In this document: positions 12,395-37,080 of the stretch, piece by piece | Layout of the letters: the number at the start of each line of letters is the position of its first letter | Numbering within the stretch: the stretch's first letter is position 1 | Assembly: GCF_000183745.1 (NCBI RefSeq) | Contig: NC_014761.1 | Span: 930,001-994,000, forward strand | Length of the DNA: 64,000 bases | Source: Oceanithermus profundus DSM 14977 | GTDB lineage: Bacteria > Deinococcota > Deinococci > Deinococcales > Marinithermaceae | Reading direction: 5' to 3' | Program-made: the position numbers and the translations under genes | The notes under the pieces: model-generated | What the model saw: the letters and a program-made list of their open reading frames with translations, nothing else | What the model was told of the DNA's origin: nothing | Databases searched by the model: none

Positions 12395-15004
12395 ATGGGC
12401 TGGGTCTACGCGTTCACCGAAACCGAGGGTTTGGGCAAGGAGCTGTTGGGCGGCAAGGGCTTCGCGCTGGCCGAGATGACGCGGCTGGGCTTTCCGGTGC
12501 CGCCGGGGTTCACGCTGACCACCGAGGCCTGCCGCGCCTATCTGGAGCACGGCGCGTTTCCCGAGGGGTTGTGGGAAGGGGTGCGCCAGCAGGTCGCGCG
12601 GCTGGAGGCGGCGACCGGGAAGCGCTTCGGGGGCGCCGGCGGCCTGCCGCTGCTGGTGTCGGTGCGCTCGGGCGCGCCGGTGAGCATGCCGGGGATGATG
12701 GACACGATCCTCAACCTGGGCCTCACCCGCGCGGGCGTGGCGGCGCTGGCCGAGGCGTCGGGCAACCCGCGTTTCGCCTGGGACAGCTACCGCCGGCTGG
12801 TGCAGATGTACGGCGAGGTGGTGCTGGGGCTCGCGGCCGAGGGCTTCGAGCGCCTCCTCGACCGCGCCAAGGTGCTGGCCGGGGCCGAGCGCGACGTGGA
12901 CCTCTCCGCGGCCGACCTCGAGCGGCTGGTGGCGGCGTACCAGGAACATATCGAGGCCCAGGGTCAGGCCTTCCCCGACGATCCCTGGCGGCAGCTCGAG
13001 GGCGCGGTGCGCGCGGTCTTCGAAAGCTGGAACAACCCGCGGGCGCGCACCTACCGCCGGCTCTACGAGATCCCCGACGACCTGGGGACGGCGGTCAACG
13101 TCCAGGCGATGGTCTTCGGCAACCTGGGCGACGACTCGGGCACGGGCGTGGGCTTTTCGCGCAACCCCGCCACCGGTGAGCGCGGCCTCTACGGCGAGTA
13201 CCTGAAGAACGCCCAGGGCGAGGACGTGGTCGCGGGCGTGCGCACCCCCCAGCCGCTCGAGCGCCTGCGCGAAAGCGACCCCGGGCTTTACGAAGAGATC
13301 GCCGACGTGGCCGCAAGGCTCGAGACCCACTTCCGCGACATGCAGGACTTCGAGTTCACCGTCGAGCGCGGCCGCCTCTACCTGCTGCAGACACGCACCG
13401 GCAAGCGCACCCCCGAGGCCGCGGTGCGGATCGCCGTGGAGATGGCCGAGGAAGGGGCGATTTCCCGCGAGGAGGCCCTCTCGCGCGTCGACGCCAACAC
13501 CCTCCCCAGCCTGCTGCGGGCGCGGATCGACCCCGACCGCGCCCCCGAGCCGGTGGCCGAAGGGCTGCCCGCCTCGCCGGGGGCGGCGGTGGGCCACGCC
13601 GTCCTCGACGCCGAGACCGCCGAGAGCTGGGCGGGGCGGGGGCTGCCCGTCATCCTGGTGCGCCCCGAGACCACTCCCGAGGACATCTCGGGCATGTACA
13701 TCGCCCGCGGCATCCTCACCGCCCGCGGCGGCATGACCAGCCACGCCGCGGTGGTGGCCCGGGGCATGGGCGTGCCCGCGGTGGTGGGGGTGGCCGCGCT
13801 CTCGCTCAACCTCGAGGAGCGCAGCTTCCGCCTCGGCGACCGCAGCTTCAAGGAAGGCGACGTGATCAGCCTGGACGGCACCACCGGCAAGGTCTTCGCC
13901 GGCGAGGTCGCCCTAAGCGAAGGGGGCAGCGGCGCCTACCTGCAGCGGCTGCTCGAGTGGGCCGAACCCCACCGCGAGCTGGGCGTGCGCGCCAACGCCG
14001 ACACCCCGGCGGACGCCCGGCGCGCCCGCGAGCTTGGGGCCGAGGGCATCGGGTTGGTGCGCACCGAGCACATGTTCTTTGACCCCGAGCGCATTCCCTG
14101 GGTGCGGGCGCTGATCCTCGCCGAGACCGAGAAGGAAGAACGCGAGGCCCTCGACCGGCTCTTCGCCTTCCAGCGGGCCGACTTCATGGGGCTTTTGGAG
14201 GCCATGGACGGCCTGCCGGTGACCGTGCGCCTGCTCGACCCGCCGCTGCACGAGTTCCTGCCGCCGCTGGTGGAGCTCGAGCGCAAGGAGGCCGCGGGGG
14301 CGCTCGCCCCCGGCGAGGCCAAGGTGCTGGCCCAGGTGCGCCAGCTGCACGAGGTGAACCCCATGCTCGGCTTCCGCGGGGTGCGGCTCCTGCTGGTGCG
14401 GCCGGAGATCCTGCGCATGCAGACGGCCGCGCTCCTCAGCGCCACCCGCGCGCTCATGGAGCAGGGGAGGGATCCGCGCCCCGAGCTGATGATCCCGCTG
14501 GTCTCCACCCCCGAGGAGGTGGAGCAGGCGCTCGCGGTGGTGCGCGAGGTCTTCGCCGAGTTCGATCTGGTGCTGCCCGTGGGCACGATGGTCGAGACCC
14601 CGCGCGCGGCGCTGGTGGCGGGGGCGATCGCGCCGCTCGTCGACTTCTTCAGCTTCGGCACCAACGACCTGACCCAGCTCACCTTCGGCATCAGCCGCGA
14701 CGACGCCGGCCACTTCCTGCCCCGCTACCTCGACGCCCGCACCTTCGCCCACGACCCCACCGAGCGCCTCGACGCCGCGGCGGTGGGCCGGCTCCTCGAG
14801 ATCGCGGTGCGCGAGGGGCGCGCCGCCAACCCGAACCTCAAGCTGGGCCTCTGCGGCGAACACGGCGGCGAGGCGCAGTCGGTGCACCTGGCCCAGCGGC
14901 TGGGGCTCGACTACGTCTCGGCCTCGCCCTTCCGGGTGCTCACCGCACGCCTGGCTGCGGCCCAGGCGGCGCTGGCGGGGGGCAGTTCTCGGGCTCGAGC
15001 CTGA
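12395..15004 (+). CDS. ppdK: Pyruvate, phosphate dikinase
   Basis: 869 residues, normal for PPDK. The N-terminal nucleotide-binding domain has GGKGFALAEM at the start and SVRSGAPVSMPGMMDTIL. The phosphohistidine domain has GGMTSHAAVVARG with catalytic His near residue 450. The C-terminal pyruvate/PEP TIM barrel ends with the Cys motif GLCGEHGG near 819. It interconverts pyruvate and PEP using ATP and phosphate, and probably feeds gluconeogenesis given the acetate and fatty-acid genes nearby. A GGGAGGGG at 12384-12391 supports the ATG at 12395 over the TTG at 12377. A TAAGAT box at 12330-12335 is a candidate -10. The 3' end overlaps the convergent secreted-protein gene by 65 bp. Confidence 0.96.
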   Translation: MGWVYAFTETEGLGKELLGGKGFALAEMTRLGFPVPPGFTLTTEACRAYLEHGAFPEGLWEGVRQQVARLEAATGKRFGGAGGLPLLVSVRSGAPVSMPGMMDTILNLGLTRAGVAALAEASGNPRFAWDSYRRLVQMYGEVVLGLAAEGFERLLDRAKVLAGAERDVDLSAADLERLVAAYQEHIEAQGQAFPDDPWRQLEGAVRAVFESWNNPRARTYRRLYEIPDDLGTAVNVQAMVFGNLGDDSGTGVGFSRNPATGERGLYGEYLKNAQGEDVVAGVRTPQPLERLRESDPGLYEEIADVAARLETHFRDMQDFEFTVERGRLYLLQTRTGKRTPEAAVRIAVEMAEEGAISREEALSRVDANTLPSLLRARIDPDRAPEPVAEGLPASPGAAVGHAVLDAETAESWAGRGLPVILVRPETTPEDISGMYIARGILTARGGMTSHAAVVARGMGVPAVVGVAALSLNLEERSFRLGDRSFKEGDVISLDGTTGKVFAGEVALSEGGSGAYLQRLLEWAEPHRELGVRANADTPADARRARELGAEGIGLVRTEHMFFDPERIPWVRALILAETEKEEREALDRLFAFQRADFMGLLEAMDGLPVTVRLLDPPLHEFLPPLVELERKEAAGALAPGEAKVLAQVRQLHEVNPMLGFRGVRLLLVRPEILRMQTAALLSATRALMEQGRDPRPELMIPLVSTPEEVEQALAVVREVFAEFDLVLPVGTMVETPRAALVAGAIAPLVDFFSFGTNDLTQLTFGISRDDAGHFLPRYLDARTFAHDPTERLDAAAVGRLLEIAVREGRAANPNLKLGLCGEHGGEAQSVHLAQRLGLDYVSASPFRVLTARLAAAQAALAGGSSRARA

Positions 15005-16820
15005 GCGGGAGAAGGGCTCCCAGGTAGGTTTCCACCTCGCCGTCCATGACCACGTCGGCCGCCTGCAGGTAGGGCGGCGGCGGGTCGCGCAGCCAATCCT
15101 TGCCCCGCGGCAGGATGCGGTAGACGTGGCCGCTGAAGGCGTGGACCGCCCAGCGCCCGTCGCTCCAGAAGGGCCCGTCGAAGAGGAGCGCGTCGCAGCT
15201 GCGGTAGCGGCCGTCCTGACGGGTGGGCAGGCGCACGAGTTCCAGGCGGTGGGCCGGGGAGGCTCCCAGTTCGCTCAGGCGGGCGCGCGCTTCTTCCTCG
15301 TCGAGCGGTCCGGCCGGCGAGGGGCATTCCATCAGGGCGTATCCCCCGCCCACGCTTTCGGATTCGCGCAGCGCCGGAACGGCGAGCAGGGCCAGGCAAC
15401 GCCCGCTCTCGGGATCGCGCAGCGGAACGTAGAACTCCGGGCCGGTCTGGATGCGCAGTGCGGTCCACACCTGCGCACGCGCCTGATCATGCGAAAGCTC
15501 CACCCCGTAGCGGGCAAAGAGCCGCTGGAGGCTCGTGGCGGCCTGGTCCGAGAGCAGCCGGTCGAGGCCCCTTTCGGGCGGACGTTCGGGCAGGCGCACC
15601 AGTGAGCCCACGCGCAGCAGCGGGTACACTTCGAGCGCGTCGAGCGCGGGCGTTTCGGGGTCGTAGCGGTCGAGCCGGGCACGGTTCTCGGCACCCTGGA
15701 CGACGTCGCGCAGGTTCTGGATCGTGAGCGACGAACCCCACAGCTGGCGCAGCCAGGGCAGGAGGTCCTCCTCGGTGATGGCTTCCAGCTTTTCTGCTTG
15801 GCGCGGCAGCCAGGCGACGGCGCCTTCGAGCGGCGGCGGCTCGCCGGGTGCGGCGACGGGCTCGAGGGGGGCGTCCGGAACCGCGTCGGTGCAGAGTAGC
15901 GGCTCGAGCGCGTAGGGCGCGACGATCCGGAGCGGATCGTCTCCACTGCGGTAGTGCGGGGCCGCCACCGGCGGCTCGGCCGCGGGCTCCGGGTCGAAGC
16001 GGGGCCGGACGCGGTAGGCCGTTCCGTAGCGCAGGTCCACCGCGTACCGCCCGTCGGTCCAAACGCCCTTGTCGGGGTCGAGGGCAAACGCGCGTTCGTA
16101 GCACGTGCGCGGCATCACGCCCCCGCGGGGTATGCCCAGGCCGCGCAGCGGCCGCAGCGGGCCCGCGGGGCCTAGACCGAAGCGTTCCAGCAGCCGCTGC
16201 GCGGCGGCCCGCGTCAGGTAGCCCCGTTCGGGGCAGGCGGTCAGGGAAAAGCTCGTCCCGCCCTCGTGCCACCACGCCGGGTATTCGAACAGGGCCACGC
16301 ACGCGCCGGCTTGGTTCACGAAGGGAACCAGGAACCACGGGCCGGCCTGCCGCAGAGCGTCCTGCCAGTACCACCGTTTGATCTGCTCGAGCCAGCGGCC
16401 GCGCTCGGGGTCGCTCGCCTCGATCTTCCATTCGCGCAGTTTGCGCTCCGCCAGGCGCTCGAGGGCGCCGGCCAGCGGACCGTCTGCGGGCATGGGGGTG
16501 TCGGGGCCGAAGGGCGCGTCGACGCGGAGCGGTTTGGCGACACGAAAGGCTTCGCCGGCCGGGCTCGAGCCCTCGAGTCCGGCGAAGCGGTCGCCCGCCG
16601 GCTCCGGGCCGTCTTCGTAGAGCCGGACGAACTCGCTTACGCTCGTCGTTTCCAAGAAGAATTGCGCCTCACCCAGCACGTAGGCCTCGGAAACCGGGCG
16701 CAGGCCGGCGGCGTTGATGCGGGCGAGGTCGTCCAGGCGCGCCGGTGGCGGCCCGAAGGCGGAGGCCGGGGCGAGCAGCGCTCCGAGCACGGCGCCCAGC
16801 AGGGCGGTGCGGAGCCGCAT
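14940..16820 (-). CDS. Secreted protein of unknown function, two copies of a ~250-residue module
   Basis: 626 residues with a clear signal peptide (MRLRTALLGAVLGALLAPASAFG) and no transmembrane segment afterwards. The mature part holds two copies of one module. Each has a region like RWYWQDALRQAGPWFLVPFV or QVWTALRIQTGPEFYVPL, a G-x-C strand, a VPA or YPA segment, a Cys-Pro, and a closing W(T/S)DGRWAV...G..YRI motif (near 400 and 590). It ends with LRLEPENC. The ATG overlaps the stop of its paralogue upstream by one base (TGATG), so the pair is translationally coupled. The 3' end overlaps ppdK by 65 bp. No known domain is recognised; paired cysteines suggest disulfides and an extracytoplasmic location. 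Confidence 0.8.
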   Translation of the reverse strand: MRLRTALLGAVLGALLAPASAFGPPPARLDDLARINAAGLRPVSEAYVLGEAQFFLETTSVSEFVRLYEDGPEPAGDRFAGLEGSSPAGEAFRVAKPLRVDAPFGPDTPMPADGPLAGALERLAERKLREWKIEASDPERGRWLEQIKRWYWQDALRQAGPWFLVPFVNQAGACVALFEYPAWWHEGGTSFSLTACPERGYLTRAAAQRLLERFGLGPAGPLRPLRGLGIPRGGVMPRTCYERAFALDPDKGVWTDGRYAVDLRYGTAYRVRPRFDPEPAAEPPVAAPHYRSGDDPLRIVAPYALEPLLCTDAVPDAPLEPVAAPGEPPPLEGAVAWLPRQAEKLEAITEEDLLPWLRQLWGSSLTIQNLRDVVQGAENRARLDRYDPETPALDALEVYPLLRVGSLVRLPERPPERGLDRLLSDQAATSLQRLFARYGVELSHDQARAQVWTALRIQTGPEFYVPLRDPESGRCLALLAVPALRESESVGGGYALMECPSPAGPLDEEEARARLSELGASPAHRLELVRLPTRQDGRYRSCDALLFDGPFWSDGRWAVHAFSGHVYRILPRGKDWLRDPPPPYLQAADVVMDGEVETYLGALLPLRLEPENCPPPAPPGPQPGVR

Positions 16821-18694
16821 CACCGCACCCTCTCCGAAGCGCAGTGGACGGGCTCGAGCCGTACGGGCAGGTAGAAGACCAAGAACTCCAGGCCGCCCCC
16901 GTCCCCGTCCGACCGCTCGATCCACGCGTACGGTTCGGGCGCCTGGGTCAGGTAGTTGAGGCCCTCGGGCAGGATGCGGTAGAGGTTGCCGCTCTGCCCG
17001 TTCAGGGCGTAGCGACCGTCGCTCCAGTAAGGAACGAGCAGGGCCTCTTCGTCGCCTGGGCAGTCGAGGGTGCGGGGATCGGGGCGATGGAAGAGCAGCA
17101 CGGCTTCGAGCGGACCCCGGGGTTCGACCCCGGCCTCACGGAAGCGGGTAGCGGCCGCGCCGGCGCTGCGCACGGGGTCGGGGGTGCGGCAGGCCGCCAG
17201 CATTTCTCCGAAGCCGCCCGCCTCGTCCTGTACGGGAACGCTCGCCATGAGGACGCAGCGCCCCTTTTCGTCGACCAGCTCGGTGTAGTACCGCGAGACG
17301 AAGAGGCCCCGGGTGAACGTCCAGACTCGCTGTCGGGCCTCTTCGAGCGTAAGGGCGGGGGTGCCCAGAGGGACGCGCATCCGGTCCCGGGCGACGGCGT
17401 CGAGGGCCAGGTCAACGAGCGGATCGTTCGGCGGGTTCTCGGGCAGGCGCACCAGCGAACGCACGAAGTAGGGCTCGCGCAGCTGCAGGACGTCCATTAC
17501 CGGCGTTTCCTCGGGAAGGGCCGCCAGCGCCTCGAGCGCCCAGGGCGGCAGGCGCTCGCCGAAGATCGAGCGCAGCATGCCCACGTCACTGCGAAAAAGA
17601 AAGCCGTCCTCGAATCGACGGCGCGCCGCTTCGGGCGTCGGACGGTCCGGACCGCCCTGTGCCAGTTGCCGCTCCAGGAGGGCGCTGCGTTTTCGGGCGG
17701 ACATCACCGAGGCGGGTAGCCGGCCTTGCGGCCGGGTCCCCTCGTAGTCGTCGCGCTGGGGGTCGCCGCAGCCTACGAGCTTGAAGAAACCCGGGTAGAC
17801 CGGCGTGATCTGCCGGGGGTCTTCGTCGGGTACCTGCACGTACTGCACGGCGTAGCGCAGCCTTCCGGCGAGCCGCTTCAGATCATCGAACGGTTGGGTG
17901 AGCCGGTAGACGTTGCCGCTGGCCACTCCGACGGCGTGCACCCCGTCGGTCCAGACGCCCAGGCGTCCGTCACCGAAGGTGTTGGCCGCGTCGCAGGCGC
18001 CCAGGGGCCGGAGATTGGCCGGACCGGGCAGGAAGGCGGCCACAAGGCCGCGAACGGGTTCGAGGCCTTCCTCGGCCAGCCGTTTGCGGGCGTCGGCCTC
18101 GCCAAGGTACGGATAGTTGCGCTGGCAGCTGGTCACGGTTCGGACGAGGCTGCCCGGATGCTTCCAGGCGGGCACGACGACCGTGCCCACGCACTCCCCG
18201 CGGGCGTTGAAGAGCGGCACCACGTAACGCGGGCCCGCTCGGGTGAGCACGTCCCTCCAGTACCAGGTCTTGGCCAACTCGAGCCAGCGGTCGAAGCCCT
18301 CTTGCCCCGCTTCGATCCCGTTGCGCGCCAGAAAACGCTTGGCCTTGTCGGCGAGCAGGCGGCGGATGCGGGCGTCGGGCGGCGGAGGCGTGTCCCTGCG
18401 GAGGGGTGCGTCCACGTAGAGCGGCTCGCCCGGCCTGAAGCGCGGCTCGCCCTCCCGGACCGGGCCGAGGTTCTCGAAACGGCGCAGGTAGGACTGCGGC
18501 AGCTCCGCGTACAACGCCGCCAGGTCCTCGACGTCGACGTCCAGCGCCAGGGCCAGGGCGTCTTCAGGGGTGCGCGGCTCGATTCCCTGGCGGGCGCTCT
18601 GCTCGAGCACTTCGAGGCCCCAAGGGTCGTTGGCGAGGGCCAAGGAAAATACGAGCCCAGCCCATAGAAGGATAAGTAACTTGATTGTTTTCAT
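16820..18694 (-). CDS. Secreted protein of unknown function, paralogue of the downstream gene
   Basis: 624 residues with a signal peptide (hydrophobic 6-21, then ANDPW). It has the same two-module architecture as its coupled neighbour. The first module runs from PLYVDAPLRRDTPPPPDAR through WYWRDVLTRAGPRYVVPLFN to VWTDGVHAVG...GNVYRL. The second has RVWTFTRGLFVSRYYTELVD and YWSDGRYALN...SGNLYRIL. The C-terminus VRLEPVHC parallels LRLEPENC in the neighbour. The start is fixed by a TAGCAT box exactly 6 nt upstream on the minus strand, with no Shine-Dalgarno. Function unknown; both gene copies have kept the same length and module order. Confidence 0.82.
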   Translation of the reverse strand: MKTIKLLILLWAGLVFSLALANDPWGLEVLEQSARQGIEPRTPEDALALALDVDVEDLAALYAELPQSYLRRFENLGPVREGEPRFRPGEPLYVDAPLRRDTPPPPDARIRRLLADKAKRFLARNGIEAGQEGFDRWLELAKTWYWRDVLTRAGPRYVVPLFNARGECVGTVVVPAWKHPGSLVRTVTSCQRNYPYLGEADARKRLAEEGLEPVRGLVAAFLPGPANLRPLGACDAANTFGDGRLGVWTDGVHAVGVASGNVYRLTQPFDDLKRLAGRLRYAVQYVQVPDEDPRQITPVYPGFFKLVGCGDPQRDDYEGTRPQGRLPASVMSARKRSALLERQLAQGGPDRPTPEAARRRFEDGFLFRSDVGMLRSIFGERLPPWALEALAALPEETPVMDVLQLREPYFVRSLVRLPENPPNDPLVDLALDAVARDRMRVPLGTPALTLEEARQRVWTFTRGLFVSRYYTELVDEKGRCVLMASVPVQDEAGGFGEMLAACRTPDPVRSAGAAATRFREAGVEPRGPLEAVLLFHRPDPRTLDCPGDEEALLVPYWSDGRYALNGQSGNLYRILPEGLNYLTQAPEPYAWIERSDGDGGGLEFLVFYLPVRLEPVHCASERVR

Positions 18695-18706
18695 GCCAGC
18701 ATGCTA
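18695..18706 (-). promoter_or_regulatory. Leaderless promoter: TAGCAT then 6 nt to ATG
   Basis: TAGCAT on the minus strand (18701-18706), then six bases to the ATG at 18694. No Shine-Dalgarno and no obvious -35. Confidence 0.5.
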
Positions 18707-18751
18707 CCACAACGTTTCCGCCCGGCCGGGGCACGCGCGGACCAAGGAACG

Positions 18752-18775
18752 CCCCCACGTCCGCAGACGTGGGGG
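18752..18775. terminator. Hairpin between the secreted-protein operon and the acyl-CoA ligase
   Basis: Perfect 10-bp stem, CCCCCACGTC (18752-18761) and GACGTGGGGG (18766-18775), around CGCA. On the minus strand it lies 23 nt after the acyl-CoA ligase stop and is followed by CGTTCCTT, so it probably terminates that gene. It lacks a long T-run. Confidence 0.55.
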
Positions 18776-18797: not shown

Positions 18798-20474
18798 CTA
18801 CCCTTCGGGACGCTGCTTTTCTTCCTCTTCCTTGCGCAGCATCCGCCTGAGAATCTTCCCCACCGCCGTCTTCGGCAGGTCGTCGCGGAACTCCCAAAGC
18901 TTGGGCACCTTGTAGGCGGCCAGGCGTTCCTTGGCGAACTGCTTCAACTCTTCCTCGCTCACCTGGCCCTCGTACCCTTCCTTGAGCACCACGAAGGCCT
19001 TCACGGTCTCGCCCCGGTAGGCGTCGGGCACCCCCACCACCGCGGCCTCCTTGACCGCCGGGTGCTGGTACAGCACCTCTTCCACCTCGCGCGGGTAGAT
19101 GTTGTACCCGCCGGCGATGATCATGTCCTTCTTGCGGTCGACGATGTAGAAGTACCCCTCCTCGTCCATCCGCGCCACGTCGCCCGTGAACAGCCAGCCG
19201 TCCTTCAGCGTCTGCGCCGTCTCCTCGGGCCGGTTCCAGTACCCCTTCATCACGTTGGGCCCCTTGACCACCAGCTCGCCCACCTCGCCCGGGGGCAGGG
19301 GGTGGCCGTCGGGGTCTGCGCAGTAGGCGTCCACCGAGGGGAAGGGCAGGCCGATCGAGCCCACCTTGCGTTCGCCGTAGAGCGGGTTGCAGTGGGTCAC
19401 CGGCGCGGCCTCGGTGAGGCCGTAGCCTTCCACCAGCTTGGCGCCGGTCAGTTCCTCGAACTTGGTGGCCACCTCGACGGGCAGCGGCGCGGCGCCCGAG
19501 AGGCAGACCTTGATGGTGCGGATGTTGCGCTTCTCGATGCCCGGGAAGGTGTTGAAGGCCACGTACATCGTGGGCACGCCGGGAAAGTGGGTCACCCGGT
19601 GTTTCTCGATCGCCGCCACCACCTCGGCGATCTCGAAGCGCGGCAGGAGGACCATCTTCATGCCCCGCATCACCGAGTAGTTCATGCTCACCGTCATGCC
19701 GTAGACGTGGAAGAAGGGGATCACGCTGAGCATGACGCCGTTCTTCCAGACCTGTCCGGGTTCCCAGGCATCGACCTGAAAGACGTTGCTGATCAGGTTG
19801 CGGTGGGTGAGCATCGCGCCCTTGGAAACCCCGGTGGTGCCGCCGGTGTACTGGAGGAGCGCCAGGTCGTCGGTCTCGATCGGGTGCGCCTCGGGGCTGG
19901 GCGGGGCCTGGAGCAGCCGTTTCCAGTCGTGGCGCTTGGGGTCGCGCGGCAGGTTCACCCAGCGGCCTTCTTTCTTGGCCTTGATCGGGAAAAGCCAGTT
20001 CTTGGGGAAGGGCAGGTAGTCCTGGAGGCCCGTGGTCACCACGCGCTTCACCGGAACCTCGCCGGCCACCTCCGCGTAGCGGGGCCAGAGCAGGTCGAGG
20101 ATCACCAGCGTTTCCGCGCCCGAGTCGCGCAGCTGGTGCGAGAGCTCGCGCGGGGTGTAGAGCGGGTTGGTGTTCACGGCCACGGCGCCGGCCAGCAACG
20201 CGCCGTAGAAAGCGATGATGAACTGCGGGGTGTTGGGCAGCATGATGGCCACGCGGTCGCCCGGCTTGACCCCGAGGTCCTGGAGGGCCCGCGCGAAGCG
20301 GCGCGTCTCCTCCCATAGCTGGCCGTAACTCATTCGTCGGCCCAGGAAGTCGAGGGCTTGTTTTTCGGGGTTCGCCTCCGCGGTCCTGCGCATCAGCTCG
20401 TAGAGGGGAACCTCGGGGTAGTCCACTTCGCGCGGCACCCCTTCGTCGTAATGGGCGTACCAGGGTCGTTCCAT
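18798..20474 (-). CDS. fadD: Long-chain acyl-CoA ligase (FadD-like), copy 1
   Basis: 558 residues. The AMP-binding core has YTGGTTGVSKGAMLTHRN and GYGLTEAAPVTH. The C-terminal block has GWLFTGDVARMDEEGYFYIVDRKKDMI and the lysine motif KTAVGKILRRML, then a charged EEEEKQRPEG tail. It activates long-chain fatty acids to acyl-CoA at the membrane for the beta-oxidation genes at 22.4-27.7 kb. GGAGG precedes the ATG, and TATACT on the minus strand (20502-20507) is the likely -10. A 449-bp stretch of the 3' part (18853-19301) is identical to the second copy, unlike the rest of the gene. This indicates recent gene conversion or a partial duplication. Confidence 0.95.
   Translation of the reverse strand: MERPWYAHYDEGVPREVDYPEVPLYELMRRTAEANPEKQALDFLGRRMSYGQLWEETRRFARALQDLGVKPGDRVAIMLPNTPQFIIAFYGALLAGAVAVNTNPLYTPRELSHQLRDSGAETLVILDLLWPRYAEVAGEVPVKRVVTTGLQDYLPFPKNWLFPIKAKKEGRWVNLPRDPKRHDWKRLLQAPPSPEAHPIETDDLALLQYTGGTTGVSKGAMLTHRNLISNVFQVDAWEPGQVWKNGVMLSVIPFFHVYGMTVSMNYSVMRGMKMVLLPRFEIAEVVAAIEKHRVTHFPGVPTMYVAFNTFPGIEKRNIRTIKVCLSGAAPLPVEVATKFEELTGAKLVEGYGLTEAAPVTHCNPLYGERKVGSIGLPFPSVDAYCADPDGHPLPPGEVGELVVKGPNVMKGYWNRPEETAQTLKDGWLFTGDVARMDEEGYFYIVDRKKDMIIAGGYNIYPREVEEVLYQHPAVKEAAVVGVPDAYRGETVKAFVVLKEGYEGQVSEEELKQFAKERLAAYKVPKLWEFRDDLPKTAVGKILRRMLRKEEEEKQRPEG
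18853..19301 (-). repeat. 449-bp identical tract, copy in ligase 1
   Basis: Every base matches 20565-21013 (offset 1712). The first mismatch on one side is at 18852 and on the other at 19302. It encodes the C-terminal AMP-ligase domain. Confidence 0.95.
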
Positions 20475-20542: not shown

Positions 20543-22183
20543 TTACTTCAGCATCCTCCTCAAGATCTTCCCCACCGCCGTCTTCGGCAGGTCGTCGCGG
20601 AACTCCCAAAGCTTGGGCACCTTGTAGGCGGCCAGGCGTTCCTTGGCGAACTGCTTCAACTCTTCCTCGCTCACCTGGCCCTCGTACCCTTCCTTGAGCA
20701 CCACGAAGGCCTTCACGGTCTCGCCCCGGTAGGCGTCGGGCACCCCCACCACCGCGGCCTCCTTGACCGCCGGGTGCTGGTACAGCACCTCTTCCACCTC
20801 GCGCGGGTAGATGTTGTACCCGCCGGCGATGATCATGTCCTTCTTGCGGTCGACGATGTAGAAGTACCCCTCCTCGTCCATCCGCGCCACGTCGCCCGTG
20901 AACAGCCAGCCGTCCTTCAGCGTCTGCGCCGTCTCCTCGGGCCGGTTCCAGTACCCCTTCATCACGTTGGGCCCCTTGACCACCAGCTCGCCCACCTCGC
21001 CCGGGGGCAGGGGTTGGCCGTCGGGATCGACGATCCGCGCCTCGACTCCGGGCAGCGGCAGGCCGATGGCCCCCTTCTTCCTGCGGCCGTAGATCGGGTT
21101 GGCGTGGGTGACGGGCGAGGACTCGGTGAGGCCGTAGCCCTCGACGAGTTTGGCGCCGGTGATCTTCTCGAAGGTCTGGGCCACCTCGACCGGGAGCGGG
21201 GCGGAGCCGGAGATGCACGCCCGGATCGAGCCGAGCCGGTAACGCGGCGTGAGCGGCGAGGTGTTGATGGCCACGTACATCGTGGGCACGCCGGGGAAGA
21301 GGGTGGGGCGTTCGCGCTGGATGGTCTCGAGCGTCAGCTTGGTGTCCCAGCGCGGCAGCAGCACCAGCCGGGCGCCGCCCACGACGGCGAGGTTCATGGC
21401 CACGGTCATGCCGTAGACGTGGAAGAAGGGGATGACCCCGAGGATCACCTCGCCGCCCTCGCGAAAATCGGGGATCCAGGCCTTGACCTGGTGGGCATTG
21501 CTGGCCAGGTTGCGGTGGGTGAGCATCGCGCCCTTGGGCGTTCCGGTCGTGCCCCCGGTGTACTGCAGCAGGGCCAGGTCGTCGAGTCGCGGTTCCCGAG
21601 GCGGCGGCGCGCTTTCGCGGCCGTTGCGCAGGAAGGCCTTCCAGGGGGTGCCGCCCAAGCGTTCGGGCCAGGTTCCTTCCCGCCGGGCCTTGAGCGGAAA
21701 GAGCCGGTTCTTGGGAAACGGCAGGTAGTCCTGGATGCCGGTTCGCACCACGGCCTTGAGGGCGAACTCGTCCTGGATCTCCTCGAAGCGGGGCCAGAGC
21801 AGATCGAGCAGCACGAGCGCTCGAGCCCCGGAGTCGCCGAGCTGGTGGGCCAGCTCGCGCGCGGTGTACATGGGGTTGACGTTCACGACCGTCGCGCCGG
21901 CCAGCAGGGCGCCGTAGAAGGCGACGACGAACTGAGGGCTGTTGGGCAGCATCAGGGCCACGCGGTCGCCGGGCTCGACGCCGGAGGCCGCGAGCGCGCC
22001 CGCAAAGCGCCGGGCCTCGTTCCACAGCCGCCGGTAGCTGATCCGCGAGCCCAGGAACACGATCGCGGTGCTGCGGGGCTGGCGTTCGGCGACGCGCCGG
22101 AGCGTGGTCGGCAACGGTTCGAGCGGGGGGAGCTGGAAGGAAACGCCGTCGTCGTAGTGCTCTCGCCAAAAGGGTTCGTTCAT
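20543..22183 (-). CDS. fadD: Long-chain acyl-CoA ligase (FadD-like), copy 2
   Basis: 546 residues from the ATG at 22183, which has GGAGG upstream. The 54 extra upstream codons of the open frame are not needed. It has the same domains as copy 1, with YTGGTTGTPKGAMLTHRN and GYGLTESSPVTH, and ends at KTAVGKILRRMLK without the charged tail. The N-terminal two-thirds diverge from copy 1 at many positions while the last ~150 codons are identical over 449 bp. It probably differs in fatty-acid chain preference through the divergent part. It lies in the same direction as copy 1, with 68 bp between the two genes. Confidence 0.95.
   Translation of the reverse strand: MNEPFWREHYDDGVSFQLPPLEPLPTTLRRVAERQPRSTAIVFLGSRISYRRLWNEARRFAGALAASGVEPGDRVALMLPNSPQFVVAFYGALLAGATVVNVNPMYTARELAHQLGDSGARALVLLDLLWPRFEEIQDEFALKAVVRTGIQDYLPFPKNRLFPLKARREGTWPERLGGTPWKAFLRNGRESAPPPREPRLDDLALLQYTGGTTGTPKGAMLTHRNLASNAHQVKAWIPDFREGGEVILGVIPFFHVYGMTVAMNLAVVGGARLVLLPRWDTKLTLETIQRERPTLFPGVPTMYVAINTSPLTPRYRLGSIRACISGSAPLPVEVAQTFEKITGAKLVEGYGLTESSPVTHANPIYGRRKKGAIGLPLPGVEARIVDPDGQPLPPGEVGELVVKGPNVMKGYWNRPEETAQTLKDGWLFTGDVARMDEEGYFYIVDRKKDMIIAGGYNIYPREVEEVLYQHPAVKEAAVVGVPDAYRGETVKAFVVLKEGYEGQVSEEELKQFAKERLAAYKVPKLWEFRDDLPKTAVGKILRRMLK
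20565..21013 (-). repeat. 449-bp identical tract, copy in ligase 2
   Basis: Identical to 18853-19301, with no mismatch or gap over 449 bp; similarity drops sharply outside it. Confidence 0.95.
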
Positions 22184-22338
22184 GCGCGCCTCCGCGGTGT
22201 GCCGGTGGACCCGGTACAAGATTGCATCGAGGTCAATATAACGGGTTTGGCGCGGCGGCGGCCAGGGCGTAAGACCCGGCCCGCGGGCGGGACCCCCAGC
22301 GGGTAGAATGGTCCCGACGCGAAACGTGGCGGCGGCAC

Positions 22339-22382
22339 TGGACAAGGGGTGTGGTGTCGGTATAAGTTTATACTCGGTATAA
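22339..22382 (+). promoter_or_regulatory. fadN operon promoter with palindrome and direct repeats
   Basis: TGGACA (22339-22344), 16 bp, TATAAG (22361-22366). The palindrome GTATAA-GT-TTATAC (22360-22373) covers the -10 box, and CGGTATAA occurs twice (22358-22365 and 22375-22382). A TATACT at 22369-22374 is an alternative -10. The arrangement suits a repressor that blocks polymerase, as acyl-CoA-responsive regulators do for fad genes; the regulator is not encoded nearby. GGAGGAGG follows just before the ATG. Confidence 0.6.
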
Positions 22383-29019: not shown

Positions 29020-32000
29020 GTGCGGTTCAGGAAGCGCTGGCTCTTTTTACTCCTGGCGGTGCTCGCGGCGCTGCCGGGTTTTCCGCCTCTGATCCAATGG
29101 GGGCTCGAGCAGGCGCTTCGGGACCAGCCCTTTCAGGTGGAATGGGCCCGGGTCAGCGGCTACGCGCTCACCGGGCTGCGCTTCGAAGACGTGCGGATCG
29201 ACGCCCCGGGTCTGGAAGCGCGCGTGGGCGAGTTGCGCCTCGGCTACAACCTCTTCGCGGCCCTGAGCGGCAAGCTCCCGCTCGCGGTCGAGCTGAGGGG
29301 CGGGACCGTGCGGCTGGACCCGGGGGCGCTTCCCGCGCTCGGGGGCGCGGCGGGCGCGGGCGGCCTGCAACCCGTGCTCGGTCGCCTCGTCCTCGAAGAC
29401 GTGCGGCTCGAGAGCGCGGCCTGGCCGCGCTTCGCGCTTCCGCCCTACCGGGCCGAGCTTTCGGGTTCGCTGCCCAGGTTCGCCTGGCGGGTGGAGACCG
29501 ACGAGGGCGCGCTCGCGGGCGAGCTCGAGCTTCGTTCGGCCGACGACTGGTCCACCACCTTCGCCGGCGACCTGGCGCTGAGCCGCTTCTGGTGGCGGGG
29601 CGGGCAGTACGGCCGGATCGAGGGCCGGTTCGGCTACCGGGAGGGGCACTGGATAGGGGAGGCCGCCGTCCGGGACGCCGGGGTGACGCTCGCCGGATTC
29701 CCGGTGCGCGAGGTGGACGGGCGGCTTCGCTACCGGGACCACGTGATCACCTCCGAGCTGCAGGGCCGGAGCCTGGACGGCCCCGTCAGCGCAACCGGCG
29801 TCGTGGACGTGCCGGGCCGCAGTTACCGGTTCAAGGCCGAGGGCCGCCCCCGACTCGAGGCCCTCCTGGCGCTTTGGAAGGTCGGCCTTCCCGCAACCGG
29901 AGAGGGCCCCCTCGTCATCGAGGGAAGCGGGTGGGAAAAACTTCACCTGGAGGGCCGTTTCCAGGGCGAGGGGCGACTGTTCGCCCGCCGCATCGGCTAC
30001 GACGGCCGCTTCGCCTACGCGGACGGCTTCACCTTGCACGCCGAGACCACCGGCCGTTTCCTCGAGCGCGGTTGGCGCAGCGTCTTCGACTGGCAGGACG
30101 GCGGCTACGTCGCCGAGGTCACCGACGACAAGGGCAGCCGCATCGAGTTGAGCGGGGAGGGGGTGCGCTACCGGGGCCAGGGCCGGCTCGTCTGGCCGGT
30201 GCCGCTCGACGGCGCGGCGCAGGTGGTGTTTTCCGGCGAGGGCACCCGCTGGCAGGTGCAGGCCGAGAGCCCGGGGGTGCGGCTGCCGCTGGCCGAGGCC
30301 CCCCTCGACCTCTCGGGCGGGCTGCAGGGCGCGGGCATGGAGGTGTCGGGCCGGCTGGGTCCGCTCGCCCTGGCGGGGCGCTGGGACGACCTGAGCCTGA
30401 AGCTGGATCCGATCCCCATGGTCGTCGGCAGCCTTGGGGGAAGCGGGCGTTGGCGCGGCGGCTTCCGCGCCGAGCTCGCCTACCGTTCGCCCTACCTGAA
30501 CCTGCCGCTCGAGGTGGTGCAGGAGGGGGCGCGCTGGCGCCTGCGTGCCGACGGCTACGGCGCGGGGCTCTGGGCCGACGGCCGCTTCCAGGCGAAGCTC
30601 GCCGACCTGCCCGTCGGGGTGCTGGGCGGCTTGAAGCTGAGCGGTGCGGTGGTCTGGACCCCAGAGGCGGCGTGGCGCGGCAACGCCACGCTGAAGGGCC
30701 GCTACCTCTCCCTGACCTCGGAGCTCGCAGGAGAGACGCTGCGCTTCGACGGCGTCGCCGACACCCCGCTTGGTGAGGTGCCGCTCGCCGGCGTGGCCGA
30801 CGCGGCCGGCGTGCGCGGCACCCTGGACGAGGCCCGCTTCCGGATCGCGCCGGGCGTCTACCGGATCGACGGCCGGGTGCGGCTGGGGGAAGGCCTGCGC
30901 TACGAGGGCGCCCTGGCCCTGGAAGACGGGCGCTGGAGCGGGGAAGCCCGCGTCGTTTCCCCCTGGGAGGAGGTGCGGCTCGTGGGGCGCGGAGGCGTTC
31001 TCGATTCGGTCTGGCGCGGCTACCTGCAGGCCGAGGGTCCGCTCTGGCCAGAACCCCGGATCGACGGCGTCCTGCACCCGCCTTCGATCGGCGACGTTCG
31101 CTTCGCGGCGCTGCCCGTCGAGCTGCGCGGCCGGCGGCTGCGCGTCGGCGCCGGCCGCGTCGAGCTGCAGGGGGCGCTGCCCTTCTCCCTTGCGCTCCCC
31201 TGGACGGGCTACGGTTACGAAGGGAACCTGTACGCGACCGGCGACCTGCGCTCGGGTTCGCTGACCCTCGCGACCCCTTGGGGGCAGGCGACCGCCCGCG
31301 GCCCCTGGTCGGCGCTCGCGCTCGCGGGCAGGCTGGAACTCCCGCGGCTGGGGCCTGTGGAGCTCGGCGGGCGGGCCGACCTGCCGGCGCTGACCTACGA
31401 CGTCCGGGCCGGGCTTCCGCAGCTGGACGGGTTCGTGGGGCTGCGGCGGCGGGGGCGCGCGCTGCGTTGGGAGGGCGCCCTGCAGCAGGGCCGGCTCCGG
31501 TTCGAGGGGGCGGGGCCCGCGGGAAGGCTCGAGGCCCGGGGCTTCGCCAGCGACGCGTTGGGGCTCCCGGGGGTTTGGAACGGCCGCCTGGCCTACGACC
31601 GGGGCTGGTCGGGCGACCTGACCTTCGAGGGGCCCTCGGGGCGCTGGCGGGCGCACGGTTTCGGCACCCTGCAGCTCGAGGGCGCGGGACCGGGGTACCG
31701 GAGCTCGGGCTACTTGAACGCCTCCAAACTCTTCGCGCGCACGGTGCTCGACGCCCGCTACCTGGCCGGAGAGCTGGTGGTCGAGGGGCCCTGGACCGCC
31801 TTGGAAGCCGTGGGGGAGGGGGTGTGGCGCTGGCCGGGGCTGCGCGAGCAGGCCTGGACGTTCAGCGCCTCCCTGCCGCGGCGTGTCTGGAGTTTGGGCG
31901 GCCCCATCCGGCTGCAGGGCGAAGGGCTGCGCTACCGCGGGTCGGTGGACTGGCGCGAGCAGATCGCGGGCCGTCCCCTCCGGTTGGAGGGCCGCTTCCA

Positions 32001-35000
32001 GGGCGAGGGGGCCCGGTTCGAAGGGAGCTTCGATCTGGGCGTTCAGGGGTACCGGATCCAGGCGGCGTTGCGGCGCGACGGCGGCTGGAGCGCTCAGGTG
32101 CGCGCCCCGGGGGGCGCGGCCCGGCTCGAGCGCGGACGCCTCCGGGTGGACGGCTGGGACCTGGCGCCGCTGGGACGGGCCCTGGGCCTGGACCTGGCAG
32201 GGCGGCTGGCCGGGACCCTGGACCTGGAGGGGCGCGGCGGGAGCTTGGCGGGGACGCTCGAGGCGGCCGGCTTTCGGCTGGCGCTGCTGCTGCGGCCCGA
32301 GGGCGCGAACTGGGCCTTCGCGGTCTACGATCCGGTGCGCAGCGCCGGCCTGCGCCTGACCACGGGGCCCGACGCCGCCTTGACGGGGCTGGGCGCGGTG
32401 CAGGGCCGGCTGGAGCTGCGGCCCGCGGCGGCGGGCGCCCTCGACTACGCCGCCGGCGGCGTGCGCGTCGGCGTAACCGCCGACGCCGCGGGGGTGCACC
32501 TGCGCGCCCGTGACGGTCGCTGGGCCCTCGAAGGGGACTGGAACGCCGGCGTCGCCCAGCTGCAGCTCGAGGGACCGGTGGGCGGCGCGCTGCGGCTCGA
32601 CACCCGGGAGGGGCGTTACCGTGGCCGCCTGCGGTACGCGACCGCGACGGCCGACGCCCTGCTGGCGTTCAGCGGCCAGGGCGCGAAGTGGCGCGGTTCG
32701 GGGTACGCCGTGGTCTACCGCGGCGTACCCCAGGCGGGGCCGCTCTCGGCCGAGGGCGACGGGCTGGACTGGCGCGTCTTCTGGGCGGCCCCGCTGCAGC
32801 TCGAGCTGGCCGGTTCGGGGGCGCGCCTGGCGTCGTGGCGGTTGGAGGGCGCGGCCGGGCTGGGCGACCTGCGCCGCAGCGCCGGCCGGCTGCACGCGCG
32901 CCTGCGCTACCGGGACGGCGCCTTTTCGGGCGCGGCCGACTGGACCTACCCCGGGGCCTACCTGAGCGCGACCGGGGAGGGCGACCGGCTCCGCCTCGAC
33001 GGCGCGGGCTTCGGCGTCCGCGCCTCTGGCACGGTCGCCGCCGACGGCCGGCTCGACCTGAGCGCCCAGGGCTCGGGGCGCCTGGGGCGGGCGTCTTGGG
33101 CGCTGTCCGCCGCAGCCGGAGGCGCGGTCCTCGCGCCCCGGCTGCGGGCCGAGCTGGCGGTTTCGGGCGAGGGGGAGGCGCGCATCGTCTCCCGGTTCGA
33201 CTACGACGGCGGCTGGGCCTTCACGGCGCGCGGGCCCGGCCTGAGCGTCGATCTCGCGCCCGACCGGGCGCGCGTGGCCGTCGACGGCCTGGACCTCGAC
33301 CCCTTCCTGGGCCTTCCGGTGCGCGCCTACGCCGCGGCTTCGGGCCCGCCGGGGTCGCTGGTGCTCCCCTTGCGGCTCGTGGGGCCGTGGCTCGACCTGA
33401 ACGGGTCGTGGACGCCCGGCACGGGGGAGGCGCGGCTGGAAGGCCGGTTGCTCGAAGGCCGGCTCGACGCCGGCTGGGGGCGCGAGGGGGCGGTCGTCGC
33501 CCTCGACCTGCCGCGGCCGCGCGTCGTCGGCGAGGTGCGCTACCGCGAGGGGCGCTGGACCGGGGGGTTCGACCTGGACCTCGCGCTCGCGGAGGGGGGC
33601 GTTCGCGGCCGGCTCGACGCCGCGGACGCCGGCGTGCAGCTTCAGGGTTACGGGGCGTACGCGGGCACGCTCGAGCTCGGCTGGAACCCCGGCCGCCTCG
33701 AAGGGCGGCTCGAGGGCGGCGGCGCGGCGCTGTCGGCCGACCTGCTGCAGGTGGGCGAGGGCTGGGTGGGGCGGCTGCGGCTCGAGAGCGCGCGCTGGGG
33801 GGGCGTACTGGCGATCGGCGAGGGTTCGCGGTTCCGCCTGCAGGGGACGGGGCCGCTGGAGCCGCTCGCCGGCCGGCTCTCGCTGCGCCCCTGGTCGCTG
33901 GCGTGGGCCTACTCCGGGCCCCTTCCCGATGGCCTGGGCGCCCTGGACGCGGCGGGGCGCTGGCCCGGCGACGCCTGGGCGCTGGGGCAGTGGCGGGTGC
34001 TCGGGCACACCTTCGAACTCGAGGGGCGCGCGGCCGGACTGGCGTTGCGAGCGGACGGCCTGCGCGCCCTTTTGAGGGCCTCGGGACCCGAAATCGACCT
34101 GGAGGGCTTCCGCCTGGGCGGCGTGAGCTGGAGCGGGCGGGTTCGCGGCGGTTGGCGCGAGCCCGAGCTGGACTTGCGCGCCCTGGGGCTGCGTCTTAGC
34201 GGCCGGCTGGGCGCCGCGGCGCGGCTCGACGTGGAGGGGTGGGCCCAGGGGCGGGTCGCGCGCACGGACGGACGCTGGGCCGGCCGGCTGCGCGTTCCGG
34301 ACGGCGAGCTGACCGCCGGCGGAGAGGGCGCCTGGCCCCGACTCGAAGGGGCGTGGCGGGGGGAGGCGGTGCGGATCGCCTACCCCGAACTGCGGCTGGG
34401 CGGGCTCGAGCTGGACCTGGCCCGGCGCACGGCCTCGGGCGCGGCGCACCTGGACGGCTGGACGCTGAGGGGCGAGGGCGAGCGGGTGGGGCTGCGCTAC
34501 CCCCTCGGCGGCGGCGCACTCACGGCCGAGGTGAACCTCGCGGACGGGCGCGCCCGCCTGCGTCCGGAGGGGATCGGCGAGGGCTGGCTGGGTTACGCAC
34601 CCGGCGACGCCGGGTTCTCGGGCACCCTGATCCTGAACCAAGCGCTTCCGGGCGAGGTGATCGTTCGCGGCCGCACCCGCGCCCTCGAACTCAGCTGGTT
34701 GCATCCGCCCAGCGACTGGCTGCCGTGGAGCCGGGGGCGCCTGGAGGCGCGCGTAGGGCTCGACGGGGCCTGGACGGCGCGGTACCGCGGCGGCGAGGCC
34801 CGCCTGGACGCCGCGGGCGACCTTCGCCGTGCGAAGTTGGAGCTGGACACCCCCTGGGGAGGCGGCGAGGTCCGCTACCGCGACGGCTGGCGGGGGAAGC
34901 TGCGGCTGAGGCAGTGGCCGGTGCCCCCGCTGGACGCCGGGCTCGACCTCGACTGGACCGGGGCCGCGGGCGGGGCGGCCCTGGTGGGCGAGCTGGCGGG

Positions 35001-37080
35001 CGACGCGGGGCGGATGTCCTTCAACCTGCGGGCCGACGCCGAGCGCTGGCTGCCCAAGGTGGAGAGCGCCGCCTTCGTGATCCAGGGCATGCGCATCGAA
35101 CGCCTGCCCAAGGTGCTGAACCGGCTGCCCTACGCTTCGGGACGGGTGGACGCGACGCTCGGCTACACGCGCAGGCTCTGGGCCGGCCGCCTGGTGAGCG
35201 AGGGCCTCACCGTGGCCGGGGAAACCTACCCCATGGAGGCGGCGCTCTACTGGAGCGACCGGCTCAAGACGCTCGAGCTGACCCTGGGGCAGAGCCGGAT
35301 CGAGACCCGGCTGGCGGAGGGACGGCTGGACCTCCACGGCGAGCTCGTCCGGCTACCGCTGCACTTCCTCACCGGCGCCTGGGCGGGCCCCCCGCCGGGC
35401 ACCGCCTACTGGACGGGGGCGGTCAAGGCCAGCGTCCCGCTGGACGACCCCTGGTCGGGCTACGGCGTGCTCGTGGGCGAGCGGCTGGACTTCGCGGGCG
35501 AGGGCAAGCGTCTGCGCGGAGAGGCGGCAGTGCGCTACGAGCGCCGCACCCTCTACGTCGACGCCCTCGACCTGAGCGGAGACGGGAGCATCCGCGGCCG
35601 GGGCTACTGGGGCCCCGACGACGCGGACCTGACCGTCGAGATCAAGGACACGGTGCTCACTCCGATCCTCGGCGTGGTTCCTCAGTGGCGGCCCTACCGC
35701 CCCCGCGCGGCCGGCAGCCTCAAGCTGCGCGCTCTGGGACCGTCGGCCTGGCTGGAGGCCGAGGGCTTCGACTTCGGCGTCGCCGCGGTCGACGGCCGCT
35801 TCGACTGGCTGCGCGTCGAGCGCGAGGGCGAGCGGTTGCGCGTCGGGGGGGCGGGCTCGTTGACGCGCCCCTACGGCGCCCGCTGGACCGTCTCGGGGCA
35901 GGGGAGGGCCGACGCGCTGACGCTGCAGATCGACGGCTCGGCCGAGCTTCCACTGATCGGCATGGTCGAGGGGGTGCGCGGCACCCTGAAGCTGCCCGGG
36001 ACCGAGTTGGACCTGCGCACCCCGAGCGCGCGGCTCGAAGGGCGGTTGCGGCCCTTGGTGCTGCGGTTGACCGGCGAGCTCCCCGTGGCCTACCCCGAGT
36101 ACTACCTGCAGTCGGGGACCGTACGCCCCGACCTCCTGCTCACCTACGCCGACGGCGGGTTCACCCTCAGCGGCGAAACCGAGGTGGTGCGGGCCGTCCT
36201 CTCGCGCCCCGAGGGCAAGCGCGAGGTCGCCTTCAAGGAGAGGCGCTACCGTTACCCGTTGCGCTTCGACCGGGTGCGCTTTTTCAGCAAGGGCGGCCTC
36301 CTCATCCAGGAGCCCCTGGCCCAGGGCGAGGCCGAGGGCGAGGTCTTCCTCGGCGGCGAACTCGCCGATCCCTACCTGAGCGGCGAGGTGGTGGGCCTGC
36401 GCGGGGAGTTCCTGCTGGGGCGCCACCGTTTCACGGTCGACCAGGCGTGGGCGCGCTTCAGCCCCGTGGCCGGCCTCTACCCCGACATCTACCTGCGGGC
36501 GCACACCCGGCTGCGCAGCGCCGACCGCGAGATCGACCTCTACCTCGAGAGCGAGGGGCACTTCGTCCGCGACGACGGCCGGGCCCGGCTGGTGCTCGAG
36601 CCCCGGCTCTGGGCCGAGGCCGGAGGCCGGCTGCTGCCCTACACCCAGGAGGAGCTGCTCGGCCTGCTGGCGCTGGGCGGGGAGTCGACCGTGGCCGAGG
36701 GCGTGGCCTCGCTGGCGATCCAGAACCTGCTCATCTCCCAGCTCGAGTACGAGCTGGCGAAGGCCCTGGGCCTGGACGTCTTCACCGTGCAAACCGACGT
36801 CTTCGCCGGAGGCGACGTCAGCACCACCCAGTTCACGGTCGGCAAGTACCTGAGCCCCGACCTCTTCGTCAGCTACAGCCTCGACCTGGGCGGACGCCAG
36901 GTGCTCGGCGCCGAATACCGCATCGACGGGCTGCGGTTGCGGGTGGAGAGCGAGCTCGGCGGCGATCTGCTCGAGCCCCAGGTGCGCTTCTCCATGCTCT
37001 ACGCGATCCGCCCGGACCTCGACCTGATCCTCAAGCTCCGCACCGGCGAGCTGCGGCTCGGCGTCGAGTGGCGGTTCTGA
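29020..37080 (+). CDS. tamB: Giant TamB-like envelope protein
   Basis: 2686 residues, more than twice the length of E. coli TamB. An N-terminal signal anchor (RKRWLFLLLAVLAALPGFPPL, about 4-24) is followed by over 2200 residues of repetitive beta-strand sequence rich in Gly, Arg and Leu (recurring motifs like G-x-L-x-L-E-G-R). The C-terminal ~400 residues have the TamB/DUF490 pattern, including FSKGGLLIQEP, GGELADPYLSGEV, the TQEELLGLLALGGES segment and a final run of amphipathic strands ending GELRLGVEWRF. TamB-type proteins bridge inner and outer membranes and are proposed to move phospholipids or assist outer-membrane protein assembly. The gene stands alone; no BamA/TamA is adjacent. It ends 3 bp before the convergent mnmE stop. 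No frameshift is seen. Confidence 0.88.
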   Translation: MRFRKRWLFLLLAVLAALPGFPPLIQWGLEQALRDQPFQVEWARVSGYALTGLRFEDVRIDAPGLEARVGELRLGYNLFAALSGKLPLAVELRGGTVRLDPGALPALGGAAGAGGLQPVLGRLVLEDVRLESAAWPRFALPPYRAELSGSLPRFAWRVETDEGALAGELELRSADDWSTTFAGDLALSRFWWRGGQYGRIEGRFGYREGHWIGEAAVRDAGVTLAGFPVREVDGRLRYRDHVITSELQGRSLDGPVSATGVVDVPGRSYRFKAEGRPRLEALLALWKVGLPATGEGPLVIEGSGWEKLHLEGRFQGEGRLFARRIGYDGRFAYADGFTLHAETTGRFLERGWRSVFDWQDGGYVAEVTDDKGSRIELSGEGVRYRGQGRLVWPVPLDGAAQVVFSGEGTRWQVQAESPGVRLPLAEAPLDLSGGLQGAGMEVSGRLGPLALAGRWDDLSLKLDPIPMVVGSLGGSGRWRGGFRAELAYRSPYLNLPLEVVQEGARWRLRADGYGAGLWADGRFQAKLADLPVGVLGGLKLSGAVVWTPEAAWRGNATLKGRYLSLTSELAGETLRFDGVADTPLGEVPLAGVADAAGVRGTLDEARFRIAPGVYRIDGRVRLGEGLRYEGALALEDGRWSGEARVVSPWEEVRLVGRGGVLDSVWRGYLQAEGPLWPEPRIDGVLHPPSIGDVRFAALPVELRGRRLRVGAGRVELQGALPFSLALPWTGYGYEGNLYATGDLRSGSLTLATPWGQATARGPWSALALAGRLELPRLGPVELGGRADLPALTYDVRAGLPQLDGFVGLRRRGRALRWEGALQQGRLRFEGAGPAGRLEARGFASDALGLPGVWNGRLAYDRGWSGDLTFEGPSGRWRAHGFGTLQLEGAGPGYRSSGYLNASKLFARTVLDARYLAGELVVEGPWTALEAVGEGVWRWPGLREQAWTFSASLPRRVWSLGGPIRLQGEGLRYRGSVDWREQIAGRPLRLEGRFQGEGARFEGSFDLGVQGYRIQAALRRDGGWSAQVRAPGGAARLERGRLRVDGWDLAPLGRALGLDLAGRLAGTLDLEGRGGSLAGTLEAAGFRLALLLRPEGANWAFAVYDPVRSAGLRLTTGPDAALTGLGAVQGRLELRPAAAGALDYAAGGVRVGVTADAAGVHLRARDGRWALEGDWNAGVAQLQLEGPVGGALRLDTREGRYRGRLRYATATADALLAFSGQGAKWRGSGYAVVYRGVPQAGPLSAEGDGLDWRVFWAAPLQLELAGSGARLASWRLEGAAGLGDLRRSAGRLHARLRYRDGAFSGAADWTYPGAYLSATGEGDRLRLDGAGFGVRASGTVAADGRLDLSAQGSGRLGRASWALSAAAGGAVLAPRLRAELAVSGEGEARIVSRFDYDGGWAFTARGPGLSVDLAPDRARVAVDGLDLDPFLGLPVRAYAAASGPPGSLVLPLRLVGPWLDLNGSWTPGTGEARLEGRLLEGRLDAGWGREGAVVALDLPRPRVVGEVRYREGRWTGGFDLDLALAEGGVRGRLDAADAGVQLQGYGAYAGTLELGWNPGRLEGRLEGGGAALSADLLQVGEGWVGRLRLESARWGGVLAIGEGSRFRLQGTGPLEPLAGRLSLRPWSLAWAYSGPLPDGLGALDAAGRWPGDAWALGQWRVLGHTFELEGRAAGLALRADGLRALLRASGPEIDLEGFRLGGVSWSGRVRGGWREPELDLRALGLRLSGRLGAAARLDVEGWAQGRVARTDGRWAGRLRVPDGELTAGGEGAWPRLEGAWRGEAVRIAYPELRLGGLELDLARRTASGAAHLDGWTLRGEGERVGLRYPLGGGALTAEVNLADGRARLRPEGIGEGWLGYAPGDAGFSGTLILNQALPGEVIVRGRTRALELSWLHPPSDWLPWSRGRLEARVGLDGAWTARYRGGEARLDAAGDLRRAKLELDTPWGGGEVRYRDGWRGKLRLRQWPVPPLDAGLDLDWTGAAGGAALVGELAGDAGRMSFNLRADAERWLPKVESAAFVIQGMRIERLPKVLNRLPYASGRVDATLGYTRRLWAGRLVSEGLTVAGETYPMEAALYWSDRLKTLELTLGQSRIETRLAEGRLDLHGELVRLPLHFLTGAWAGPPPGTAYWTGAVKASVPLDDPWSGYGVLVGERLDFAGEGKRLRGEAAVRYERRTLYVDALDLSGDGSIRGRGYWGPDDADLTVEIKDTVLTPILGVVPQWRPYRPRAAGSLKLRALGPSAWLEAEGFDFGVAAVDGRFDWLRVEREGERLRVGGAGSLTRPYGARWTVSGQGRADALTLQIDGSAELPLIGMVEGVRGTLKLPGTELDLRTPSARLEGRLRPLVLRLTGELPVAYPEYYLQSGTVRPDLLLTYADGGFTLSGETEVVRAVLSRPEGKREVAFKERRYRYPLRFDRVRFFSKGGLLIQEPLAQGEAEGEVFLGGELADPYLSGEVVGLRGEFLLGRHRFTVDQAWARFSPVAGLYPDIYLRAHTRLRSADREIDLYLESEGHFVRDDGRARLVLEPRLWAEAGGRLLPYTQEELLGLLALGGESTVAEGVASLAIQNLLISQLEYELAKALGLDVFTVQTDVFAGGDVSTTQFTVGKYLSPDLFVSYSLDLGGRQVLGAEYRIDGLRLRVESELGGDLLEPQVRFSMLYAIRPDLDLILKLRTGELRLGVEWRF

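Follow-up and report, generated by a model that had tools for sequence, protein, structure and literature searches.

A genus-restricted family of secreted tandem-module proteins encoded next to an acyl-CoA ligase gene in Oceanithermus profundus

Genes A and B of the deep-sea-vent bacterium Oceanithermus profundus encode two exported paralogues, each carrying a module of about 280 residues twice, and with their few relatives they constitute a new sequence family that is placed under no known family in the libraries searched. Our main reading, to which we assign a probability of about one half, is that A and B are exported, non-enzymatic binding proteins, stabilised by disulfides, which form a dispensable pair specific to the genus and would act together outside the cytoplasm. 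The family was found in three of 111 Deinococcota genomes: O. profundus (G000), MAG 354-166 (G011) and MAG M10 (G013). All three belong to one genus, for which six genomes were available, and in all three the genes lie beside the same acyl-CoA ligase gene. The window analysed is a stretch of 64,000 bases with 71% GC (bases 930001-994000 of the O. profundus chromosome). The chromosome has 2,303,940 bases in a genome of 2,439,291 bases, and the published plasmid size of strain 506T is 135,351 bases (PMC3111992).

Gene layout, export and transcript boundary

The features of the unit are as follows (window positions).

18752..18775, minus strand: 10-bp GC-rich perfect hairpin between ACS1 and A
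18695..18709, minus strand: extended -10 element (TGG TAGCAT), ending six bases before the ATG of A
16820..18694, minus strand: gene A, open frame for a two-module secreted protein of 624 aa; signal peptide at about residues 1-21, cleavage between ALA and ND
16818..16822, minus strand: TGATG stop/start overlap of A and B (one base), conserved in MAG 354-166
14940..16820, minus strand: gene B, open frame for a two-module secreted protein of 626 aa; signal peptide at about residues 1-21, cleavage between ASA and FG

The coordinates, the one-base overlap and both signal peptides had been given in a first-pass annotation and were confirmed, and the TGATG sequence recurs in a second species. The start codon of gene B is the ATG at 16820; the ORF list extends the frame upstream to a GTG at 16925. 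From the overlap we infer translational coupling of A and B. In O. profundus and MAG 354-166 the unit is located between the acyl-CoA ligase gene ACS1 and PPDK and converges on PPDK. These neighbours are unrelated housekeeping genes; mobile-element genes are absent alongside, and the GC content of A and B is near the host value.

A sigma-70 scan requiring both hexamers found no promoter for the unit. The sequence TGNTAGYAT-N6-ATG is kept in all three carriers (in MAG M10 it is followed by a B-like gene) and occurs at one site in the 64-kb window versus 0.12 expected, a count made after the element had been spotted by eye in the three genomes. It is a probable leaderless promoter, of the extended -10 type described for Deinococcus-Thermus (PMC12340547). 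The hairpin between ACS1 and A shows a compensatory pair change in MAG 354-166 and probably marks a transcript boundary.

A signal peptide with an A-x-A site is present in A, B, the MAG M10 homologue and a single-module relative (gene C, described below). No cysteine was found near the cleavage site of any of the proteins (no lipobox), and no second hydrophobic or membrane segment was clear in any of them. By the sequence criterion for a Sec-exported, disulfide-bonded protein, both features were found: a signal peptide and even, conserved cysteines.

Two other features of the window were recorded. Two tandem acyl-CoA ligase genes (minus strand, 18801-20474 and 20546-22345) have a 3' tract of 461 bp in common, with 99.8% identity between the two copies; in the congener G010 the two copies are 98% identical and in MAG M10 96%, and the rest of the genes is about 80-90% or less. 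Identity within a genome exceeds identity between genomes, the mark of repeated gene conversion. The plus strand at 29020-37077 encodes a very large protein (2686 aa) whose C-terminus carries a TamB domain (E 5e-16).

The duplicated module, its cysteines and its fold

A and B share 33% identity over 586 aa (E 3e-56) and are paralogues, as annotated. The repeated module had been estimated at about 250 residues; we place its four copies as follows.

17735..18622, minus strand: module A1 plus upstream segment, residues 25-320; Cys 168/190/234/309
16823..17677, minus strand: module A2, residues 340-624; Cys 480/502/545/618
15876..16757, minus strand: module B1, residues 22-315; Cys 174/196/240/310; modelled (pLDDT 81.5, pTM 0.82)
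14943..15848, minus strand: module B2, residues 325-626; Cys 475/499/542/613

The internal repeat is not visible by BLASTP of A or B against itself. Profiles of the N- and C-terminal modules aligned over 226 columns in hhalign (P 99.5%, E 1.7e-22), and a model of full-length A has the same order of secondary-structure elements in both halves: short helices, a strand, two long helices, a beta hairpin, a short strand, a helix, and a strand followed by a strand run around a W-S/T-D-G turn. Overall confidence in this model is low (pTM 0.48), and it is very low in a linker of 40 residues (312-351). The profile alignment and the element order show that the halves are related, so the refuting outcome named earlier, a structure prediction with unrelated halves, did not occur.

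Eleven modules from the three genomes (five full-length sequences and one single-module sequence) were compared. Residues A103, W131, C153, C175, A186, C219, G236 and C289 (B1 numbering) are invariant, and a P, G, L, R, W, D, A, G, Y and P are nearly so. All 44 cysteines of all the proteins fall on the four invariant positions per module and have been retained through duplication and speciation at identities of 25-40%. This pattern agrees with the disulfides suggested earlier from conserved cysteines, and two per module would be the natural reading. The other proposed signatures fared unevenly. Cys-Pro is present in some modules only. The W-(T/S)-D-G-R motif is a recurrent turn, but roughly every second module lacks its R, and gene C lacks its W. 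R-L-E-P-x-x-C holds for the C-terminal modules of A and B and is confined to those, whereas its final Cys is invariant in all modules. As corrected, the signature consists of the four invariant cysteines of each module together with W131, G236 and two Ala.

Across the modules there is no invariant Ser, His, Glu, Lys or Asp; only R205 and D235 come close, and D235 sits in the W-(S/T)-D-G turn. The pattern appears structural rather than catalytic, a judgement made on few modules and with the proviso that A and B could differ in chemistry. It bears directly on the possibility of a secreted enzyme with a duplicated catalytic domain (e.g., a hydrolase of vent organic matter). Export, an alpha+beta domain of about 280 residues and a heterotrophic host (PMC3111992) would fit such an enzyme, but the lack of an invariant catalytic-type residue and of a Foldseek match to any enzyme fold makes it improbable.

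We found no credible match in Pfam-A for A, B, C or the 11 modules, none in NCBIfam, PHROG or PADLOC for the full-length proteins, and no match among PDB sequences. The description of the pair as having no known family was thus borne out for these libraries, including by the profile search of the modules that could have placed them in a characterised family. The B1 model is alpha+beta and fairly confident. A known fold was defined by a significant Foldseek E-value together with a TM-score above 0.5; the search against PDB returned nothing significant (best E 0.44, TM about 0.1) and that against viral models returned nothing. Judged against these two sets, the fold may be new. A lineage-restricted, secreted tandem-module family is in itself a familiar kind of object.

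Two resemblances were considered. A profile match (E 4e-5) to the designed "Cake" beta-propellers (PDB 6tjc-6tji) reflects a strand pair, W-S-D-G-x-A-V-x-x-x-S-G-x-x-Y-R, that is like part of one blade. This identity was rejected: the score is additive over identical designed repeats and no single stretch is significant alone. The module model, with long helices, mixed strands and one repeat per about 280 aa, differs from a propeller and shows no four-stranded blades in a circular array. Part of the module resembles PepSY/BLIP-like secreted domains (PF03413), by secondary-structure order alone; the likeness is a helix followed by a beta meander, export and possible tandem occurrence. The module differs in having four cysteines and about four times the PepSY length. 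The PF03413 profile matched neither A, B, any module nor the rest of the genome, and no PepSY structure was among the Foldseek matches listed.

Distribution, selection and history of the locus

MAG 354-166 carries an orthologue of A (86% identical) and of B (81%), and next to B it has gene C (L010:682-1602), which encodes a single module behind one signal peptide (306 aa; computed pI 9.8 versus 5.1-5.9 for the A and B types). Gene C is absent from O. profundus. MAG M10 has one B-like gene (41% identity to B) between ACS1 and an Rrf2-type gene, without A and with PPDK missing there (L011:1-2144). The A-B pair is not obligatory, since this genome keeps only the B-like gene. A genome-collection scan recovered only the two MAGs already known; it used two short peptide patterns, which distant relatives with changed motifs could escape. 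No relatives were found in IMG/VR pattern scans or in phage or plasmid records. A Streptomycetaceae plasmid match (E 0.9) was dismissed as chance because it is antisense to the annotated gene, and other Deinococcota profile or protein matches (E 0.004-0.9, scattered query parts) are expected by chance over 111 genomes.

Between O. profundus and MAG 354-166 the dN/dS is 0.27 for A, 0.51 for B (with segments at 0.6-0.7) and 0.11 for ACS1. The genes evolve about six to eight times faster than the neighbouring gene, yet under purifying selection. All family genes found are intact. A and B are maintained but loosely, B most loosely; the earlier statement that selection maintains them holds between the two species compared, but three of the six congeners lack the unit. 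One could read the pair as an orphan of this lineage that is weakly constrained, does nothing important and is heading for loss, as the dN/dS of B, the absence of the unit from three congeners, the lack of A in MAG M10 and the lack of C in O. profundus might suggest. Intact genes with their cysteines and promoter kept argue against this, and we regard it as highly improbable.

The same patchy presence weighs against a structural role in the Oceanithermus envelope, as a scaffold of the S-layer or one associated with the outer membrane. Such a protein might well be exported and show conserved cysteines, tandem modules and two coupled genes, but no anchoring segment or S-layer domain was seen in A or B, and their GC3 (0.85-0.87 versus 0.92-0.96 in neighbouring core genes) suggests modest expression. 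A scaffold is quite improbable.

In a tree of the modules the N/C split comes first, then A/B, then B versus the MAG M10 gene, in the same order in both halves (support 97/96 and 88/93 without C). Gene C falls near the root on a long branch and its position is unsure. The tree reads as module duplication, then duplication giving A and B, then speciation and losses. In dN, B exceeds ACS1 by a factor of 8.1 between O. profundus and MAG 354-166 and of 7.9 between O. profundus and MAG M10, about equal at two depths, as expected for fast, steady orthologues under vertical descent. Horizontal acquisition is not favoured, given this steady ratio of about 8 and a tree that puts the A/B split before the species split. 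Tree and ratio together indicate that the unit was probably ancestral to these species and was wholly or partly lost several times. A DNA tree of the ligase gave ((G000,G011),G010) versus (G012,(G014,G013)) with modest support, under which three complete losses would be needed; other gene trees at the locus were poorly resolved. In MAG M10 the gene start is A-like in the first codons and B-like from the cleavage region on, which suggests, tentatively, that A was lost by deletion between the two signal-peptide regions. The B-like gene there seems to have taken over A's promoter and first codons.

The junction is at most 65-180 bases in the congeners G012 and G014 and in a genome of a related genus (G009). 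In G010 the ACS1/PPDK junction holds a 3.9-kb insert of about 50% GC (L051:6189-10042) with a complete Gabija pair, GajA of 669 aa (E 5e-244) and GajB of 615 aa (E 1e-213), which ruled out diverged A/B genes at that place. Gabija shares the intergenic site with the A/B unit and differs in being a cytosolic ATPase-nuclease/helicase pair, at about 50% GC, of proteins unrelated to A and B.

Possible roles of the A/B pair

The Gabija insertion makes a defence role worth testing, namely an exported pair that would block phage adsorption, a toxin or a hostile protease at the cell surface from a variable, defence-prone locus. Fast evolution, patchy presence and a junction that is empty in G012 and G014 and occupied by GajA-GajB in G010 are in its favour. 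One insertion in one congener, however, is a single coincidence and does not make a hotspot; the unit appears vertical by tree and rate, with near-host GC and no mobile-element genes alongside, and PADLOC matched none of A, B, C or the MAG M10 protein. We hold such a cell-surface defence or competition factor to be unlikely. A broader proposal, in which a new module fold and a surface-exposed A-B(-C) assembly for defence, competition or ligand capture arose within Oceanithermus by module and gene duplications, is distinctly unlikely.

Under our main reading of a non-enzymatic binding pair, A and B would be produced by coupled translation of a single leaderless transcript and exported by Sec, presumably as soluble periplasmic or secreted proteins. 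Each would consist of two copies of the alpha+beta module, locked by probably two disulfides. The two proteins would then pair, probably as a hetero-oligomer, and bind a partner or ligand outside the cytoplasm without enzymatic chemistry. The first-pass annotation had gone further and put the pair forward as a candidate envelope or extracellular system, a proposal that finds no support among unrelated housekeeping neighbours and in a family that is genus-restricted, patchy and fast-evolving.

The A/B genes are thus a well-defined orphan family, real but narrow, rather than a demonstrated system. They offer an orderable case of a genus-restricted secreted family that grew by module and gene duplication and underwent loss. 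One genome (MAG 354-166) retains a single-module relative, and the predicted module has no match among solved structures. If the function is in fact surface interaction, vent Thermaceae would have an extracellular activity that is at present missing from any annotation.
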